From positions 1 to 64,000 of the forward strand of contig NZ_QREV01000001.1 in NCBI RefSeq assembly GCF_003363715.1: a stretch of 64,000 bases of DNA, written 5' to 3'. A program made the translations under genes and the position numbers. A model generated the notes under the pieces. It saw nothing but the letters and a program-made list of their open reading frames with translations. It ran no database searches and was not told the DNA's origin. Every line of letters begins with the position of its first letter. Position 1 is the stretch's first letter. Shown one piece after another: positions 46,246-55,583 of this stretch. The DNA comes from Parabacteroides acidifaciens. Its GTDB lineage: Bacteria; Bacteroidota; Bacteroidia; Bacteroidales; Tannerellaceae.

Positions 46246-46693
46246 GAAGATATTGATCCTGGGTGTCGGCAACCTGCTGTTGAAAGACGAAGGTGTCGGC
46301 ATCCACGTAATCCGCGCCCTGGAAAACGAGGAACTGCCTCCCAACGTCTCCCTGATGGACGGCGGGACAGGCGGATTGCACCTGATCGCCTGGATACAGG
46401 ATTACGACCGTATTATCATGGTCGACGCCACGCTCGACGATAATCTGCCGGGCACCATCCGCCTGATCCGTCCGCGCTATGCAACAGACTTCCCTCCGCT
46501 TATGAGTGCGCACGAGATCGGTCTCCGAGACATGATCGAGGCAATGATATTGACTGGGAAACTGCCGGATATCCAACTGATCGTTATCTCCGCAGCGGAT
46601 ATCAGCGAGGTGGGAATGGAACTGACGCCTGTTGTGGAAGCGGCAGTTCCGAAGGTGGTAGAGCTTATTCGATCCTGTTTATCTCACCAATGA
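46238..46693 (+). CDS. Hydrogenase maturation endopeptidase (HyaD/HybD-like)
   Basis: A 151-residue protease of the M52 family. It keeps GVGNLLLKDEGVG (metal-binding Glu/Asp), the VDATLDDN Asp region and SAHEIGL (His), which together sense the inserted nickel. It removes the C-terminal tail of the large subunit. The start at 46238 overlaps the cytochrome gene; the longer in-frame extension lies inside that gene. Its 3' end overlaps the convergent serpin gene by 29 bases. Confidence 0.95.
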   Translation: MNEKILILGVGNLLLKDEGVGIHVIRALENEELPPNVSLMDGGTGGLHLIAWIQDYDRIIMVDATLDDNLPGTIRLIRPRYATDFPPLMSAHEIGLRDMIEAMILTGKLPDIQLIVISAADISEVGMELTPVVEAAVPKVVELIRSCLSHQ

Positions 46694-47903
46694 AATAGAT
46701 CGCGCCCGTACTGTATTCGCTGATCAGATAAATAAACGGGCGGTTCACGAAGAAATCCATCTTCTGCATCTCCGGTCTCGGGCCCGGCGAAGAGACCCAG
46801 CCCTCTCCCATTGTGACGGTTTCGGCTTTCGTCCCTTCCTCGTCTACCTCTATGCGGGCTTTCTGCAAGGCGCGCGACAAAAAGATCCGTTCCCGGCTCA
46901 GTTTGGAGAAGTCTGCATCCGCAGCGGAAAATGCCGATGTGATGCCTAATGCCTGCAAGACATCATTCAGTTCGATATCGTATGAAGTCGAGAAACGGGG
47001 CAACTTCAAATGAATCTGATAACCATTACGGTTCTCGGGAAGCAGCCTCCACGATTCACCCGTCAACGAGGCGATCACTTCGGCATTCGTCACACCTTCG
47101 TCCGGCAACAGGATCGACATGGAAAACGCGCCGTTGCCGTATGAGCGTGACAACATACGATACTTCTCATGCTCGCAAACAACGCCGGAAAAAGAGGCAT
47201 TCATCATCTGCACCTCCTGCTCACGTCCCTGTGCATCGGTAAAGAGATCCTTCTTCGTATTGCTTGTCTCGAAAGGCGTGCTCCATTCGCCCCGGAAAGC
47301 AATTGCATTCAGTAAATAGATGCACGCATTCGGATTGATCTCATCCAATATCTTCGGAATCCGGCCATCCGTATTCTTGGAAGTCCAGTCGTTGATCTGT
47401 TTCAAGGCATCCGATTTGGAGAAATCCAGATTACGCACAGTAGCTTTATAATAGGACTCATTCGCCTCCCGGAAAGCCGGCAACACGTTAAGTCCGTTTC
47501 TTACCCAAATGGAGTTTGCCGTATGAACCGTTACCTGCGGGTCGATGTCGGCAGAGGCGACAAGCATCTTCTGGTTATACGCATTTATCTCATCAGGCTG
47601 CGCTCCCTCAAAGCCCAATGTCCAGGCGATCTCTTCCTCAGTCTTTCCGGCCGCTCCGTTATTAAGCATGGACATCATGTAGTTGACACTGATCGGCGAC
47701 AGGATAATATTAGCCGGCTGTGCATGGCTGCTGCTGACCTGGCGGAACAGGGAAAAGGCGAAATCGTTGCCTGCATCGGCAAGGGCTTGTTCGGACTTGG
47801 TCAACGGAATATCCGTGCGGTCTTTTTTACGCGGAACATCGTCGCCATTATCACAAGAGGCGAACGCACAAAGTACAAATAAGGCAAAAACAAGTTTCTT
47901 CAT
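46665..47903 (-). CDS. Serpin family lipoprotein
   Basis: A 412-residue serine/cysteine protease inhibitor. The signal peptide ends in the lipobox AFASC (Cys17), so it is a lipoprotein and possibly surface exposed. The serpin fold is complete: NIILSPISVNYMMSML, the hinge EEGTKAETVT, and the C-terminal NRPFIYLI. Counting from the hinge Gly as P15 places the scissile P1-P1' at about Ser-Ser in GWVSSPG; this is an estimate. Bacteroidetes serpins such as miropin block host or competitor proteases. It is convergent with and overlaps the hydrogenase protease gene. Confidence 0.93.
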   Translation of the reverse strand: MKKLVFALFVLCAFASCDNGDDVPRKKDRTDIPLTKSEQALADAGNDFAFSLFRQVSSSHAQPANIILSPISVNYMMSMLNNGAAGKTEEEIAWTLGFEGAQPDEINAYNQKMLVASADIDPQVTVHTANSIWVRNGLNVLPAFREANESYYKATVRNLDFSKSDALKQINDWTSKNTDGRIPKILDEINPNACIYLLNAIAFRGEWSTPFETSNTKKDLFTDAQGREQEVQMMNASFSGVVCEHEKYRMLSRSYGNGAFSMSILLPDEGVTNAEVIASLTGESWRLLPENRNGYQIHLKLPRFSTSYDIELNDVLQALGITSAFSAADADFSKLSRERIFLSRALQKARIEVDEEGTKAETVTMGEGWVSSPGPRPEMQKMDFFVNRPFIYLISEYSTGAIYFIGEINRIE

Positions 47904-48055: not shown

Positions 48056-49306
48056 TTATTCCAATACTAAAACTTCGTTGTCCTTATAGCTTTCGTAGCT
48101 GGAAACGATAACTTTCTCGCCTGCTTCCAGACCGTCGATCACTTCATAGTACTGCGGGTTCTGACGGCCGATCTTGATCTTGCGGCGATAAGCCTTCTTG
48201 CCGTCTTTGTCGAGTACGAAAATCCAGCTGCCGCCCGTGCTCTGGAAGAATGTTCCACGCGGGATGATGATGCTTTCTGTCGGCTTACCAAGTTCCAGGC
48301 TGATATAATAAGTCTGTCCGCTGCGGATATTATCGGGACGTTCGCCTGTGAAAACGAAATCCGTACGGAACTTGCCGTCACGTACTTCCGGATAAACCTT
48401 GCGTACGCTCAATGCGAAGTTTGCGCCCTGGCGTTCGAAAGTTGCTGATAATCCCTGCTTCACGCGGTCGATATAATGTTCGTCGATCATGACTTCGATC
48501 TTATAATCCGAGAGGTCGTTGATCTGTCCGATCTTCTGTCCGGCAGAAACATTCTGGCCTAAAACAACATCCAACAAACCCAACTCTCCGTCGATCTGTG
48601 AACGGACATTCAGGTGTTCTTTCCGTTCGTGTACCAATGCGATATTTTTACGCATATTAGCCAAACTGGTTTCCATTTCTTCCATCTGGATTGTACGGGA
48701 GATGGAATCCTGACGCAAACGTTCTACAACCAAATTATATTTCTTGCTTGCCAGTTCATAGTCTTCTTGCGCTTTCAGAAACTCTTCCTTGGCAATCAGG
48801 TTTTCTTCATACAGCTTCTTCTGTTGGTTGTACGCACGGCGAAAGCGTGTGATATCCACATCTAATTGAGCCTTTTCCAACTGGTTATTCAGCTTATCCT
48901 GTTCCATTGCCACCTGTGTGTTACGCAGGAAGTTCTGCTTTTCCGCCAACTGGGCTTCCGCATCCAGAATCTGCAGGTCGAGGCCGGAGTTGGAAAGACG
49001 GACAATAACATCCCCTTTCTTCACCTGTGCACCTTCTTCCACTACTTTTTCCTGCACGATACCGCCTTCTTCCGGGCTGAGCTGCACAACTGTGATCGGT
49101 TGCACCTGTCCGTCCACGCGAACGAAGTCGTTGAACTGTTCTCTTGTCACATTCCCGATGTTAATACCGCGGGCATCCACCTTCAATGTCGAAGCATGAT
49201 CACCGAAAATGATCCATCCTACCAAAACCAGGAAGAAAGCACCACCTGCCACATAAGGAATATGCTTCTTCTGAAGACCTTTCTTTTTTTCTAACTGTAT
49301 ATCCAT
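48056..49306 (-). CDS. Membrane-fusion (HlyD/AcrA-type) efflux adaptor
   Basis: A 416-residue periplasmic adaptor. An N-terminal membrane anchor (about 17-35) is followed by a biotinyl-lipoyl-like domain split by a long coiled-coil hairpin (about 95-230), a beta-barrel domain (VMIDEHYIDRVKQGL) and a membrane-proximal domain. It joins an inner-membrane pump, usually a MacB-like ABC permease in this family, to TolC. No pump gene is in the window. It is second in the tolC-hlyD operon (40-bp gap). Confidence 0.92.
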   Translation of the reverse strand: MDIQLEKKKGLQKKHIPYVAGGAFFLVLVGWIIFGDHASTLKVDARGINIGNVTREQFNDFVRVDGQVQPITVVQLSPEEGGIVQEKVVEEGAQVKKGDVIVRLSNSGLDLQILDAEAQLAEKQNFLRNTQVAMEQDKLNNQLEKAQLDVDITRFRRAYNQQKKLYEENLIAKEEFLKAQEDYELASKKYNLVVERLRQDSISRTIQMEEMETSLANMRKNIALVHERKEHLNVRSQIDGELGLLDVVLGQNVSAGQKIGQINDLSDYKIEVMIDEHYIDRVKQGLSATFERQGANFALSVRKVYPEVRDGKFRTDFVFTGERPDNIRSGQTYYISLELGKPTESIIIPRGTFFQSTGGSWIFVLDKDGKKAYRRKIKIGRQNPQYYEVIDGLEAGEKVIVSSYESYKDNEVLVLE

Positions 49307-49346: not shown

Positions 49347-50684
49347 TCAATTCTCATTTATAAGCGGCTGGCCCTTATAGTAATCGACTTGCCTGCATTT
49401 CATCAGATATAATAGACGTCTCTGTAAAAGATCGGCTTTTGAGTTCAGTAAAGTCGTTGCATTTGTCTGTACATCGAGCGGGCTCATCAATCCTTCTTCA
49501 AATTTACGAAGTGTAACCTGATATGCCAAATCATCAGCTTTTACTTTCTTTTCCATCTGAATCGTTTCCTTTGCATAACCTTCTCTGTCGAGGACAGCCA
49601 ATTCTACATCTTTCTGCAGCTGACGAAGTGTCTCCGTTTGCTTTTCGTAAGCGATCCGGACATTATTGCGGGCCCGGCGCAGATTGGTTATACGTGATAA
49701 GCCATCGAACAATGGAAAACTAAAACTGAAATAAATATATTCCCCGCGGTTATTCTTAAACTGGCTTTTGAAAGAAGATGCAGCAGTTTCAGACTTTAAA
49801 TTCTCAAAATAGCTGGTCGAAATACCGGCTTCGACAGAGAGAGACGGAAGCAATTTCCCTTTTGTTATTAAATAATTCATTTTACTGGTTTTCAACTGAA
49901 ACTCGGCCTGCAAGGCGGTCGGGTTATTTGCCATGGCATAATCCTGTATCGCACTGATAGACTCTTCGGCCCGTATGCTTTCTACCTGTGGTACAGCCGT
50001 ATCGACTTCCAGTTCCAAATCGGAAGGATAGTTCATCGCATTCTTCAATGTCATCATCGCCGTATTGTAGAGATTCTGCTGATGCGTCAGATTATAGTCG
50101 TCACCGGCAGCCTGCGACTCGATCTGGGCAACATCCGCCTTACCTTTAAGCCCTAATTCTTCCTGACGTTGGGTTTTATATAAAAGGCGCTTACTATCTT
50201 CCAACTTATCGGCACACATTTTTACCAGTCCCTGGTAATACACGACGGTAATATAGGCATCCATAATACTGATTGCCAAATCATCTTTTTGTTTCTGCAA
50301 ATCATTTCTACCCATATGGCGGTTCACATTGGCCAGACGCCATTGGTTAATCAACTGTCCCCCTCTGAAAAGCGGCAATGAAGCATAAGCACCATAGCCA
50401 TTATTAAAGGTTGACGTATTTACATAAGTATTAGTCCCCGGGTCAACAGAACGACCGAACCTGTATTGAGCATCGACCTGTGTACTGATAGTAGGTAAAA
50501 AAGAGGCTACAGCCGATTGTTGCTCGGCTTGATATGTATTATTTGTATAGGCCTGTTGTTTCACCTTCGGACTGTTTTCCACCGCATACCGCATGCAATC
50601 GTCCAAACTCCAGATTTTATCCTGCGCCAACATCGGGGCAAGCAGGCTAAACGAAAGAACTGTTGTAATTATTATCTTTTTCAT
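49347..50684 (-). CDS. TolC-family outer-membrane efflux protein
   Basis: A 445-residue protein with a signal peptide (about 1-20, ending MLAQ) and two tandem TolC repeats of coiled-coil helices and barrel strands (outer membrane efflux PF02321 type; SLDDCMRYAVENSP at the start). It forms the outer channel with the adaptor encoded downstream. It is the first gene of the operon and is preceded by a sigma-54 promoter and two dyad sites. Confidence 0.93.
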   Translation of the reverse strand: MKKIIITTVLSFSLLAPMLAQDKIWSLDDCMRYAVENSPKVKQQAYTNNTYQAEQQSAVASFLPTISTQVDAQYRFGRSVDPGTNTYVNTSTFNNGYGAYASLPLFRGGQLINQWRLANVNRHMGRNDLQKQKDDLAISIMDAYITVVYYQGLVKMCADKLEDSKRLLYKTQRQEELGLKGKADVAQIESQAAGDDYNLTHQQNLYNTAMMTLKNAMNYPSDLELEVDTAVPQVESIRAEESISAIQDYAMANNPTALQAEFQLKTSKMNYLITKGKLLPSLSVEAGISTSYFENLKSETAASSFKSQFKNNRGEYIYFSFSFPLFDGLSRITNLRRARNNVRIAYEKQTETLRQLQKDVELAVLDREGYAKETIQMEKKVKADDLAYQVTLRKFEEGLMSPLDVQTNATTLLNSKADLLQRRLLYLMKCRQVDYYKGQPLINEN

Positions 50685-50710
50685 TGCTGTATTATTTTCT
50701 ACCTGATAAA

Positions 50711-50728
50711 ATGCAAAGAGCGTGCCAA
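50711..50728 (-). promoter_or_regulatory. Sigma-54 (-24/-12) promoter of tolC-hlyD
   Basis: The reverse strand reads TTGGCACG, four bases, TTGCAT, with TGGCAC at the -24 position (50722-50727) and TTGCA at -12 (50712-50716). The spacing of 10 bases between GG and GC is exactly that of RpoN promoters. The predicted start site is near 50701, giving a leader of about 18 bases to the tolC ATG. Confidence 0.85.
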
Positions 50729-50782
50729 AATAGTCAATCCATTATAATACAAAGCATTAATAATATATTCATTTTGAACGAG

Positions 50783-50820
50783 TGTCAAAAAATTGGACAG
50801 TGCTGTAAAAGAATTAGACA
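50783..50820 (-). promoter_or_regulatory. Two tandem dyads: candidate upstream activator sites for tolC-hlyD
   Basis: TGTCAAAAAATTGGACA (50783-50799) and TGTAAAAGAATTAGACA (50804-50820) share the form TGTn, nine bases, GACA. Their centres (50791 and 50812) are 21 bp apart, two helical turns, and lie about 65-90 bp upstream of the -24 element, a usual distance for sigma-54 enhancer-binding proteins. The candidate binder is the NtrC-type regulator at 52912-54267. Confidence 0.65.
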
Positions 50821-50968: not shown

Positions 50969-51165
50969 CCTGCTCTTATGGTTCACTTTTTCTTAAATAT
51001 GATCCCTTCTAACTTTCAACTTTCAACTCTTAACTTTCAACTATCCGGGGGGCTTATTGTATAAAACGCATTTTTCAGGTTTAAGAGAGACTCGAAATCT
51101 AATAAATGTTAATCTGCTTTTTGGGCGTCAAAATGGGACTTTTTCCTCTTTTTTGAGTGTTTTCA

Positions 51166-51271
51166 GCCATTACGACCGTCCTAATCTCTATTACGACCGT
51201 GCTAATAGGTAGTGCACTCGGCACCTCGCGAAGATTAGGACGGTCGTAATGGCGATTTGGACGGTCGTAAT
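51166..51271. repeat. Symmetric 21-bp-period array of ACGACCGT words, locus E
   Basis: ATTACGACCGT occurs at 51169 and 51190 (21 bp apart), and its inverse ACGGTCGTAAT at 51240 and 51261 (21 bp apart). All four are symmetric about position 51220. The 22-base segments 51166-51187 and 51232-51253 are perfect reverse complements. Confidence 0.9.
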
Positions 51272-51370
51272 TGAAAAGAGAACCGTTTTCATGGCAAAAA
51301 AGCACCTGAATTTCCTTGCGATATTTGGGACGCCGTCCGTTTTATTTTCAAATATTCGATTCTCCGGGAG

Positions 51371-52911: not shown

Positions 52912-54267
52912 ATGACAAAACAAGGCACCATACTGGTTGTAGACGATAACAAAGGAATCCTTACCGCAGTACAGATGCTGTTGGGCACTTGCTTCGAGAA
53001 GGTGATTACCATTTCTACTCCGAATAAGATAAAATCCACATTGCACGATGAGAATATAGATGTTGTTCTGTTGGATATGAATTTCAGCGCCGGCATCAAT
53101 ACCGGCAACGAAGGGCTGTTCTGGCTCTCGGAAATAAAGAAGGAAGATGCATCGATACAGGTCGTTCTTTTTACGGCATACGCGGATATCGACCTTGCCG
53201 TACGGGGAATCAAGGAAGGAGCGACCGACTTTGTCGTCAAGCCCTGGGACAACGCCAAGCTGCTGGAAACGTTGCGGACCGCCTATAACATACGGATAGC
53301 CAACCGCAAAGGCATCGCACTTGCCGACAACAAGCTGGTCGTCTCCAAAGAAAGCGGCATGTTCTGGGGAGAAAGCAGCGCCATGCAACAACTCCGCTCC
53401 CTGATCGAAAAGGTCGCCCGGACGGATGCCAACATCCTGGTTACCGGTGAGAACGGAACAGGTAAGGAAATGCTTGCCCGCGAAATACATATGCTTTCCA
53501 ACCGGAAGAAAGAGACATTGGTCCCGGTCGATATGGGAGCCATCACGGAAACGCTTTTTGAAAGCGAACTGTTCGGCCACGTCAAAGGAGCTTTTACCGA
53601 TGCGCGGGCAGACCGGCCGGGAAAATTCGAGGTTGCCAACAACGGCACGCTCTTCCTGGATGAGATCGGGAACCTCTCCTATCACCTGCAAGCCAAGCTG
53701 TTGACCGTCCTGCAACGCCGCAGCATCGTCCGCGTAGGAAGCAACACGCCCATTCCGGTCAATATCCGCCTGATCTGCGCGACAAACCGCGACTTGCAGG
53801 AAATGGTCGAAAAAGGCGATTTCCGCGAAGACCTGCTCTATCGCATCAATACGATCCATGTAGAGATTCCGCCCCTTCGCGAACGGCCGGAAGACATCGT
53901 TCCCCTTACCGAAATATTCCTGTCCAAATATGCCAATATCTATGGAAAAACAACCATGCACCTCAGTCCGGATGCCAAAGAGAAACTGAGTGCACAGCCC
54001 TGGTTCGGAAACATCCGGGAACTGGAACACACCATCGAAAAGGCGGTTATCATTGCCGAAGGAAACGTGTTGGAGGGAAACGATTTCGATTTTCCGCGTG
54101 CCAAAAAGGAATCGGCGACAAAAGAAGCGACGACTTTGGAAGAAATGGAATACAACATGATAAAGAGCGCCATGGACAAATACAGCGGAAACCTGTCGCT
54201 CGTTGCCAGCCAGTTGGGAATCTCCCGGCAGACGCTGTATAACAAGATCAAACGATACGAACTGTAA
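52912..54267 (+). CDS. NtrC-family sigma-54-dependent response regulator
   Basis: A 451-residue activator. The receiver domain (1-125) has the acidic pair DD and phospho-acceptor Asp55. The AAA+ domain (about 145-370) has Walker A GENGTGKE, the sigma-54 contact loop GAFTDA and Walker B LFLDEIG. The Fis-type helix-turn-helix is at the C terminus (LVASQLGISRQTLYNKI). It activates RpoN promoters. The only clear RpoN promoter I see in the window is that of tolC-hlyD, 2.2 kb away. It is coupled to the downstream kinase by a TAATG overlap. Confidence 0.96.
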   Translation: MTKQGTILVVDDNKGILTAVQMLLGTCFEKVITISTPNKIKSTLHDENIDVVLLDMNFSAGINTGNEGLFWLSEIKKEDASIQVVLFTAYADIDLAVRGIKEGATDFVVKPWDNAKLLETLRTAYNIRIANRKGIALADNKLVVSKESGMFWGESSAMQQLRSLIEKVARTDANILVTGENGTGKEMLAREIHMLSNRKKETLVPVDMGAITETLFESELFGHVKGAFTDARADRPGKFEVANNGTLFLDEIGNLSYHLQAKLLTVLQRRSIVRVGSNTPIPVNIRLICATNRDLQEMVEKGDFREDLLYRINTIHVEIPPLRERPEDIVPLTEIFLSKYANIYGKTTMHLSPDAKEKLSAQPWFGNIRELEHTIEKAVIIAEGNVLEGNDFDFPRAKKESATKEATTLEEMEYNMIKSAMDKYSGNLSLVASQLGISRQTLYNKIKRYEL

Positions 54268-55583
54268 TGCTGAAAGGGATTTTCCATAATTTCTATCTCC
54301 GTCTGGCAGTATTTATCATACTGACGGTAGCAGAGACCTGGTTTGCTCTCCAAAAGGAGTGGATATGGTTCATCCCGCTTATGGGCGTATGGCTTTTTAT
54401 ACTCCGGCAAATCCTGTTGTCGGACAAACGGAATGCCCAGAAAGTCGCGTTTATGTTCGATGCGATCGACAACAGCGACTATGCATTCCAATATGCAACA
54501 CGCGGCCGTTCGTCCAACGATAAGCTGGTCAGCGAGTCGTTAAACCGCATTACCCAGATTCTTTTCCAGGCAAAGGCAGACGCTGCGCAGAAAGAGAAAT
54601 ATTACGAGCTGATCATGAACTCGGTCAACACCGGTATCATCGTGCTCGACGACAATGGCGTGATCTTCCAGACCAACAACGAAGCCTTGCGACTGTTGGG
54701 AATGTCGGTCTTCACCAATGTCCGCCAACTCGGGCGTATCGACGAAAATCTGGAAAACACCGTGCGGAACATCCAGCCGGGCGACAAACATCAGATATCG
54801 TTTACCAACGAACGCGGCAACGTACACTTGTCCATCCGCGTTTCCGAAATGACCTTGCAGGAAAAGCACGTGCGCATCCTGGCAATCAACGATATCAACA
54901 GCGAGCTGGATGAGAAGGAAATCGACTCCTGGATACGCCTGACACGCGTCCTGACGCACGAGATCATGAACTCCGTCACGCCTATCACTTCACTTAGCGA
55001 CACGCTCCTCTCCCTCCATGAAAATGCGGACGACGACATACGCAGCGGCTTAGAAGTGATCAGTACGACGGGAAAAAGCCTGATTTCGTTTGTAGAGTCT
55101 TACCGGAAATTCACGCATATCCCGACGCCTGAACCTTCCCTCTTCTACGTCCAGAAGTTCGTAGAACGTATGGTGAAGCTCGCCCGCCATCACAACAACT
55201 TCCCGAACATCACGATCAACGTCAGCGTCGAGCCGTCCGACCTGATTGTCTATGCCGACGAGAACCTGATTTCGCAGGTTGTCCTGAATCTGCTGAAAAA
55301 CGCCATGCAGGCAATCGGAAGCGAGCAGGAAGACGGCCTGATCGAAGTAAAAGCCTATTGTAACGAAGAGGAAGCCGTCCTGATAGAAGTCAGCAACAAC
55401 GGCCCTGTCATTCCGCAGGAAGAGGCCGAACATATTTTCGTGCCATTCTTCACGACCAAAGAGGGCGGCAGCGGCATCGGGCTGTCCATCTCCCGCCAGA
55501 TCATGCGCCTGTCCGGAGGAAGCATCGCCCTCAAGAGCGCTCCGGCAGCCAAACGGACAACGTTTATTCTGACGTTCCCTTGA
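54267..55583 (+). CDS. PAS-containing sensor histidine kinase
   Basis: A 438-residue kinase, cognate to the sigma-54 regulator. Two N-terminal membrane segments (about 8-25 and 32-50) with almost no periplasmic loop suggest it senses in or near the membrane. A PAS domain (about 115-225; SVNTGIIVLDDNGV) precedes the HisKA helix with the acceptor His in LTHEIMNSVTPI. The HATPase domain follows (NLLKNAMQAIG, EGGSGIGLSI). The start overlaps the regulator stop by one base. Confidence 0.94.
   Translation: MLKGIFHNFYLRLAVFIILTVAETWFALQKEWIWFIPLMGVWLFILRQILLSDKRNAQKVAFMFDAIDNSDYAFQYATRGRSSNDKLVSESLNRITQILFQAKADAAQKEKYYELIMNSVNTGIIVLDDNGVIFQTNNEALRLLGMSVFTNVRQLGRIDENLENTVRNIQPGDKHQISFTNERGNVHLSIRVSEMTLQEKHVRILAINDINSELDEKEIDSWIRLTRVLTHEIMNSVTPITSLSDTLLSLHENADDDIRSGLEVISTTGKSLISFVESYRKFTHIPTPEPSLFYVQKFVERMVKLARHHNNFPNITINVSVEPSDLIVYADENLISQVVLNLLKNAMQAIGSEQEDGLIEVKAYCNEEEAVLIEVSNNGPVIPQEEAEHIFVPFFTTKEGGSGIGLSISRQIMRLSGGSIALKSAPAAKRTTFILTFP

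Follow-up and report, generated by a model that had tools for sequence, protein, structure and literature searches.

The window, that is, the whole stretch of 64,000 nucleotides of Parabacteroides acidifaciens DNA that was analysed, carries a minus-strand operon of tolC and hlyD and, on the plus strand at a distance of 2.2 kb from tolC, a bEBP gene paired with a histidine kinase gene (Table 1). These four genes lie where a preceding sequence-only reading had placed them, and their Pfam domains agree with the assignments. A serpin gene at 46665-47903 was considered as a further operon member and rejected: it is located 152 bp downstream, and it is not beside hlyD in two related loci (L047 and L048).

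Table 1. Features of the tolC-hlyD locus in the window, and the ten promoter modules of the genome with the genes that follow them
Feature	Position	Strand	Basis or remarks
hlyD, periplasmic adaptor, next operon gene (40-bp gap)	48056..49306	−	PF13437/PF16576
tolC, outer membrane efflux protein (OEP)	49347..50684	−	PF02321 1.9e-41
σ54 −24/−12 promoter TGGCACGCTCTTTGCA	50712..50727	−	motif match; −24 sites of relatives
IHF-like core TAATGCTTTGTAT (YAANNNNYTG)	50747..50759	−	fixed spacer position 24-36; column conservation and position test; putative binding protein
promoter-proximal dyad TGTCCAATTTTTTGACA, predicted bEBP site	50783..50799	−	perfect; centre ~−90; 55 bp from −24 box
distal dyad TGTCTAATTCTTTTACA	50804..50820	−	one mismatch; 21 bp farther up; centre ~−111
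bEBP response regulator, predicted activator	52912..54267	+	REC PF00072, AAA+ PF00158, Fis-type HTH PF02954; helix SRQTLYNK
histidine kinase	54267..55583	+	PAS, HATPase; two N-terminal hydrophobic stretches, very short loop
module C1			tolC-hlyD downstream
modules C71a, C71b			each before two FtsX genes
module C71c			before LolD-like ATPase and three large genes, the first FtsX by Pfam
modules C75a, C75b			before FtsX genes; second ATPase in between
module C94			before two large genes, the first FtsX by Pfam
module C101			before hlyD2-ftsX
module C102			before DUF3836 protein (not exporter)
module C83			before beta-lactamase-family protein (not exporter)

The consensus σ54 promoter proposed for the tolC-hlyD operon is borne out: TGGCACG-N4-TTGCW is found without mismatch at this site alone in the window, and the site also fits TGGCAY-N5-TTGCW with no mismatch and with GG and GC spaced 10 bp apart. 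The other nine matches listed in the window carry two mismatches each (ten in total, against a shuffle mean of 8.5). The 16-bp promoter is separated from the tolC start by 27 nt, and transcription is predicted to start near 50701 from the standard −12 distance. An rpoN gene is present in the genome (C13:69921-70397, PF04552 1.4e-52). Bacteroides-type promoters have the consensus TTTG / TAnnTTTG, and an overlapping promoter of this type in the spacer was rejected by eye. As for the two upstream dyads, described beforehand as TGTn-N9-GACA, the pair with its spacing of 21 bp stands, but the strict form holds for the proximal dyad only.

The same arrangement is found elsewhere in the genome (5.10 Mb, 144 contigs). 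Exact TGGCAC-N5-TTGCW occurs at eight places, against two for the control, and four of the eight are internal to called frames (323-758 aa). Taken alone, the dyad shows no enrichment: with up to one mismatch it is found at 35 places per strand and its reversed control at 34. A composite pattern of dyad, N35-65 and relaxed −24/−12, by contrast, occurs at seven places and its reversed control at none, which is beyond chance. A search of the fetched loci for a −24/−12 site at 45-65 bp from a dyad gave ten modules (Table 1). The two dyads are offset by 21 bp in nine of them (23 in C101), and 55 bp separate the proximal dyad from the −24 box in eight (56 in C83, 52 in C101). Single dyads on C63, C70, C99, C116, C123, C102 (25875) and C101 (7279) were left out of the regulon for want of a suitably spaced σ54 site.

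Eight of the ten modules precede tolC-hlyD, hlyD-ftsX, MacB/FtsX permease or LolD-like ATPase genes by Pfam. A genome-wide search for efflux operons behind such sites, which the sequence-only reading had called for, thus gave a mostly positive answer, while its idea of a wiring specific to the tolC-hlyD pump fell: ten promoters of the genome have the operator layout in common, eight of them before the same kind of exporter, and the wiring is therefore not private to one pump. TolC, HlyD adaptor, MacB/FtsX permease and ABC ATPase all occur in the regulon by Pfam, though not in one operon here. In the locus of P. goldsteinii (L049), tolC-hlyD is followed by FtsX-like genes and an ATPase gene, and the closest ATPase in the window's genome is encoded on C71 (96% identity). 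The regulon thereby holds all the component families of tripartite ABC exporters of the MacAB-TolC type. It differs from these in that ATPase and permease are separate genes, that many permeases go with one tolC-hlyD, and that the genes are scattered over several loci and tied by a common operator. Very probably, then, the site upstream of tolC is one copy of the enhancer-promoter module of a σ54 regulon whose members would jointly build a scattered tripartite ABC exporter.

The layout is conserved, as the sequence-only reading had required of the dyads. Among ten loci of named genomes fetched with the window's TolC (Parabacteroides, Massilibacteroides and Maribellus of the Prolixibacteraceae), paired dyads and a −24 site are found ahead of tolC in nine; no such layout precedes tolC in the tenth, L056, whose TolC is a 25% homologue. 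Counting the window as a tenth row beside these nine relatives, the dyad gap is 55 in seven and 56, 53 and 52 once each, and the pair offset is 21 in nine of ten (22 in Maribellus). In the nine relatives the −24 site ends 26-30 nt ahead of the tolC ATG, and the −12 C is replaced in four (L048, L051, L052 and L054). Over the order, a strict composite pattern matches in 9 of 295 genomes, four of them judged chance, and its control in 3 of 295. With a slightly relaxed pattern, 32 of 59 relatives give matches, and all control counts are 0.

From the order-wide and 59-relative searches, 93 sites were fetched and 92 re-found (L201 was missed). Matches judged chance had been dropped before fetching: G011, G002, G023:C51, G298:C136, G298:C192 and both G300 rows in the 59-relative set, and G196, G011, G251 and G087 in the order-wide set. 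One of the 92, L211, is probably chance too (gap 45, poor partner dyad). Exporter-type genes come first downstream in 83 of these 92 modules of other genomes: by tblastn with the window genome's own proteins as queries, the first match is FtsX in 38, TolC in 23, ATPase in 21 and HlyD in one, with none in nine. By eye, the modules at L185, L187 and L189 precede frames that begin like carboxypeptidase-regulatory-domain or TonB-dependent proteins and not like exporter genes. All 85 genus sites have their best partner dyad at 21 bp, and the gap from dyad to −24 is 55 in 65, 54 in 10, 53 in seven and 56 in three, in a search that allowed 45-65. Since selection required a perfect TGTC/GACA in the proximal dyad, degenerate sites are missed. 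The −12 C is kept in only 36 of the 85 genus promoters and is otherwise A, T or G.

The spacer between dyad and −24 box is itself constrained. Spacers of the window's own genome share a mean identity of just 37% (29% when shuffled), so that they are not simple copies. In a set of 58 non-redundant genus spacers of 55 bp, A25 and T32 never vary, and G33 is found in 51, A40 in 54, T47 in 57 and A48 in 52; with the out-of-genus L212, L214 and L215 added (61 spacers), the 95% limit for shuffled columns is 0.19 bits. The IHF consensus is WATCARNNNNTTR, and its reverse complement is matched by the register at 24-36 with a mean of 7.03 of 9 over the 61 spacers. The core YA-N5-YTG stands at its fixed place in 46 of the 58 genus spacers (shuffles at most 6) and in 7 of 15 out-of-genus spacers, and the Maribellus spacer TAATCGATTGATA is a full match to the consensus. 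Two A positions of the consensus, spacer positions 26 and 34, are weak. We infer from this core that an HU/IHF-family protein bends the spacer. Alternatively, the conserved columns may be a feature of the promoter, such as RNA polymerase contacts, flexibility of YR steps or the site of another bound protein. This reading is a serious one, held to be somewhat short of even odds: TA near 39-40 and TTA at 46-48, outside the short IHF consensus, are conserved besides the core and give YR steps every 7-8 bp, and the IHF-like register outscores all other places in no more than 35 of the 61 spacers. Against it, the next register among those listed above 5.2 scores just 5.30, well below the IHF-like one (register 23), twelve Bac_DNA_binding (HU/IHF family) matches are found in the genome, and σ54 systems commonly have a bend site between the enhancer and −24.

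With regard to the activator, ten strong bEBPs (E < 1e-60) are found among the 14 matches listed for the genome, and the recognition helix SRQTLYNK is present in just two of them, those of the window and of C101. The σ54-contact loop of the window's bEBP reads GAFTDA instead of GAFTGA (53587-53604), as in half of the ten (window, C101, C79b, C99 and C76), and D occupies the place of the GAFTGA glycine in 28 of 30 order-wide homologues; GAFTDA is named among the loop variants thought to retain activity (PMC4641369). At the 30 order loci, paired dyads within 700 bp upstream accompany 19 of 25 homologues with RQTLYNK and none of five with RPTLY (P = 0.003), with a cut-off (mismatch sum up to 6) chosen after looking and stretches shorter than 700 bp at contig ends. 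The window's own bEBP counts as a miss in this comparison because its dyads are 2 kb away, and the shuffle control is weak, a result of 0 of 60 having been obtained even for the chance-like pair of the window (sum 7). At 24 of the 30 loci, the bEBP gene is divergent from one for TolC, HlyD, FtsX or ATPase.

Furthermore, sites and bEBP co-occur in the genus. Pattern matches are present in 28 of 35 genomes, or 27 once both matches of G300, in which the inner AA/TT is absent, are set aside. All 27 have a bEBP match at E <= 5.9e-210; among the eight genomes judged to be without sites, five have none at E <= 1e-185 and three have weaker ones (1.2e-188 to 3.3e-197), one of which still reads TRQTLYNK (L273). 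A cut at 1e-200 separates the two groups completely (P 4e-8, with relatedness ignored and the cut set afterwards; the siteless G302, G317 and G324 are only 82-88% complete). The bEBP frame was read in 24 site-bearing genus genomes (L264 gave no clean one); in 18 of these, the 700 bp upstream of it contain no dyad pair or a weak one, and the assignment there rests on co-occurrence. As in the window, the genes of the bEBP-kinase pair point away from tolC in L047-L049 and L053-L055, and L047 has a 159-aa frame in the intervening stretch. L050 has the kinase, and its bEBP stretch has no cleanly called frame; in L051 and L052 no bEBP-kinase pair is found in the fetched flank, though the dyads persist. 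The very short loop between the two N-terminal hydrophobic stretches recurs in six of seven kinases compared, a predicted topology that fits an intramembrane sensor and names no signal; the membrane stress proposed by the sequence-only reading is one candidate. Judged from these comparisons, the bEBP of the window is likely to be the activator that acts on the dyads.

The earlier idea that this pair drives tolC-hlyD is well supported by conservation, co-occurrence and the helix-operator association, and qualified by the C101 pair, which has the same helix and could share the operators. It is unlikely, though conceivable, that the C101 paralogue, divergent from hlyD2-ftsX, is the main reader of the dyads and that the bEBP of the window either has other targets or uses the dyads jointly with it. 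The C101 bEBP carries the identical SRQTLYNKMKR, dyads and a σ54 site lie between its gene (bEBP2) and hlyD2 with one dyad directly upstream of bEBP2, and the site-bearing G298 has only a C101-like match, its window-type gene being possibly cut at a contig end (L050). On the other hand, 21 of the 27 site-bearing genus genomes have a single bEBP match at E <= 1e-185, the C-termini read there look mostly window-type, six named relatives have a window-type bEBP facing away from tolC and the dyads, and the C101 module itself is the deviant one (offset 23, gap 52). TolC genes, OEP by Pfam, are also located near two bEBPs with other helices, C76 (L072:8859-10470) and C79b (L070:5990-6290). By eye, the palindromes upstream differ (TTGTGCGCTTATGCACAA and AGTGTTCATTTTCGGACACT, respectively), and σ54-like sites are there as well, which suggests parallel systems with separate operators.

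A very improbable case is that an unrelated transcription factor uses the dyads, which would then accompany σ54 sites for repression or through descent from a common promoter. An FtsX gene of C70 is indeed preceded by a perfect dyad with no suitably spaced σ54 site, and dyads taken singly are about as frequent as their control; however, the gap to −24 keeps to 53-56 bp at all 85 genus sites despite the wider range allowed, and both the helix-operator association and the co-occurrence with the bEBP point to the latter. A chance motif match, to which the exact −24/−12 matches inside called frames and the control-like count of single dyads might point, has a negligible probability and is rejected for the composite by seven places against none in the genome, by 32 of 59 relatives with no control match and by the genes downstream.

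The module, its conservation, its gene content and its co-occurrence with the bEBP are thus apparent at the level of sequence, and from them we infer bEBP binding, DNA bending, activation and exporter assembly in a scheme as follows. A signal, probably envelope-borne, would reach the kinase/bEBP pair of the window (52912-55583), and possibly the C101 paralogue too, and the kinase would phosphorylate the bEBP. Dimers of the bEBP would then occupy the two dyads on one face of the DNA, centred near −90 and −111, and an HU/IHF-family protein would bend the fixed element near −52, so that the AAA+ ring could meet the σ54 polymerase poised on the −24/−12 elements. This contact would lead to the open complex and to expression of tolC-hlyD, and like modules elsewhere would start the LolD-like ATPase and the MacB/FtsX permeases in parallel. 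Because nearly equally spaced copies of the module precede scattered exporter genes, one sensor pair probably switches on the dispersed exporter. A wider proposal, for which the odds seem about even, is that a rigid bEBP-bend-σ54 module before each unit co-regulates an exporter of one channel and many permeases, even with its genes far from one another, and in some species a short structured RNA as well.

A flexible distance between enhancer and promoter is the usual case in σ54 systems. The present one is like the NtrC, PspF and NifA types in its REC-AAA+-Fis HTH regulator, in paired dyads ~90-110 bp upstream and in a bend-like element between the enhancer and −24/−12. It is unlike them in the GAFTDA loop of the AAA+ domain and in an enhancer-promoter distance that is near constant over dozens of promoters in several genera. 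Control of an exporter by σ54 and a bEBP is of a known kind; the common near-rigid module and the dispersed exporter set this case apart. σ54 promoters have been predicted before COG0577/COG0842/FtsX-like ABC permease genes in Bacteroidia (PMC12316311). The operator, the activator, the TolC-HlyD link and the geometry are added here; none of these was found in that paper, whose main text has no mention of TolC, UAS, IHF, palindromes or Parabacteroides. A literature search, covering mostly the beginnings of abstracts and subscription journals thinly, gave, among the top entries, this general prediction and not the regulon.

What is gained for Parabacteroides is a σ54 regulon with a defined operator, a likely activator and a list of genes. 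Regulation ties one outer-membrane channel to many permeases, and through this link the exporter's role becomes testable by a few deletions. If the wider proposal is true, the module would be a bacterial enhancer system whose distance is held nearly constant, in contrast to the usual flexible looping; and if the near-constant geometry is functional, it would provide a natural test of σ54 enhancer flexibility.

There are also modules with no same-strand exporter-type frame, in five genomes (L142, L152, L176, L209 and L128). A conserved stretch with several predicted hairpins and a T run is found ~190 nt past the promoter in the first four, which align, and ~90 nt past it in L128, which is shorter; it is convergent to a gene for a 303-aa membrane-protein-like product. 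Fold z values are −1.89 (L142) and −4.45 (L128), and no Rfam match was found for the stretch. It is a candidate σ54-driven small RNA, and its last hairpin may be no more than the terminator of the convergent gene.

Two further observations were made by eye. Between tolC and the bEBP gene, the window has inverted ATTACGACCGT-type repeats (51140-51290), and small frames resembling this stretch (YDRPNRHYDRPNLREVPSALH and the like) are also found at C71, C102 and C70; it looks like a dispersed repeat. Inside the FtsX cluster at C71:30461-31520 (L057/L058), an ECF-sigma-like gene is accompanied by two small genes, and a similar trio occurs in L054.
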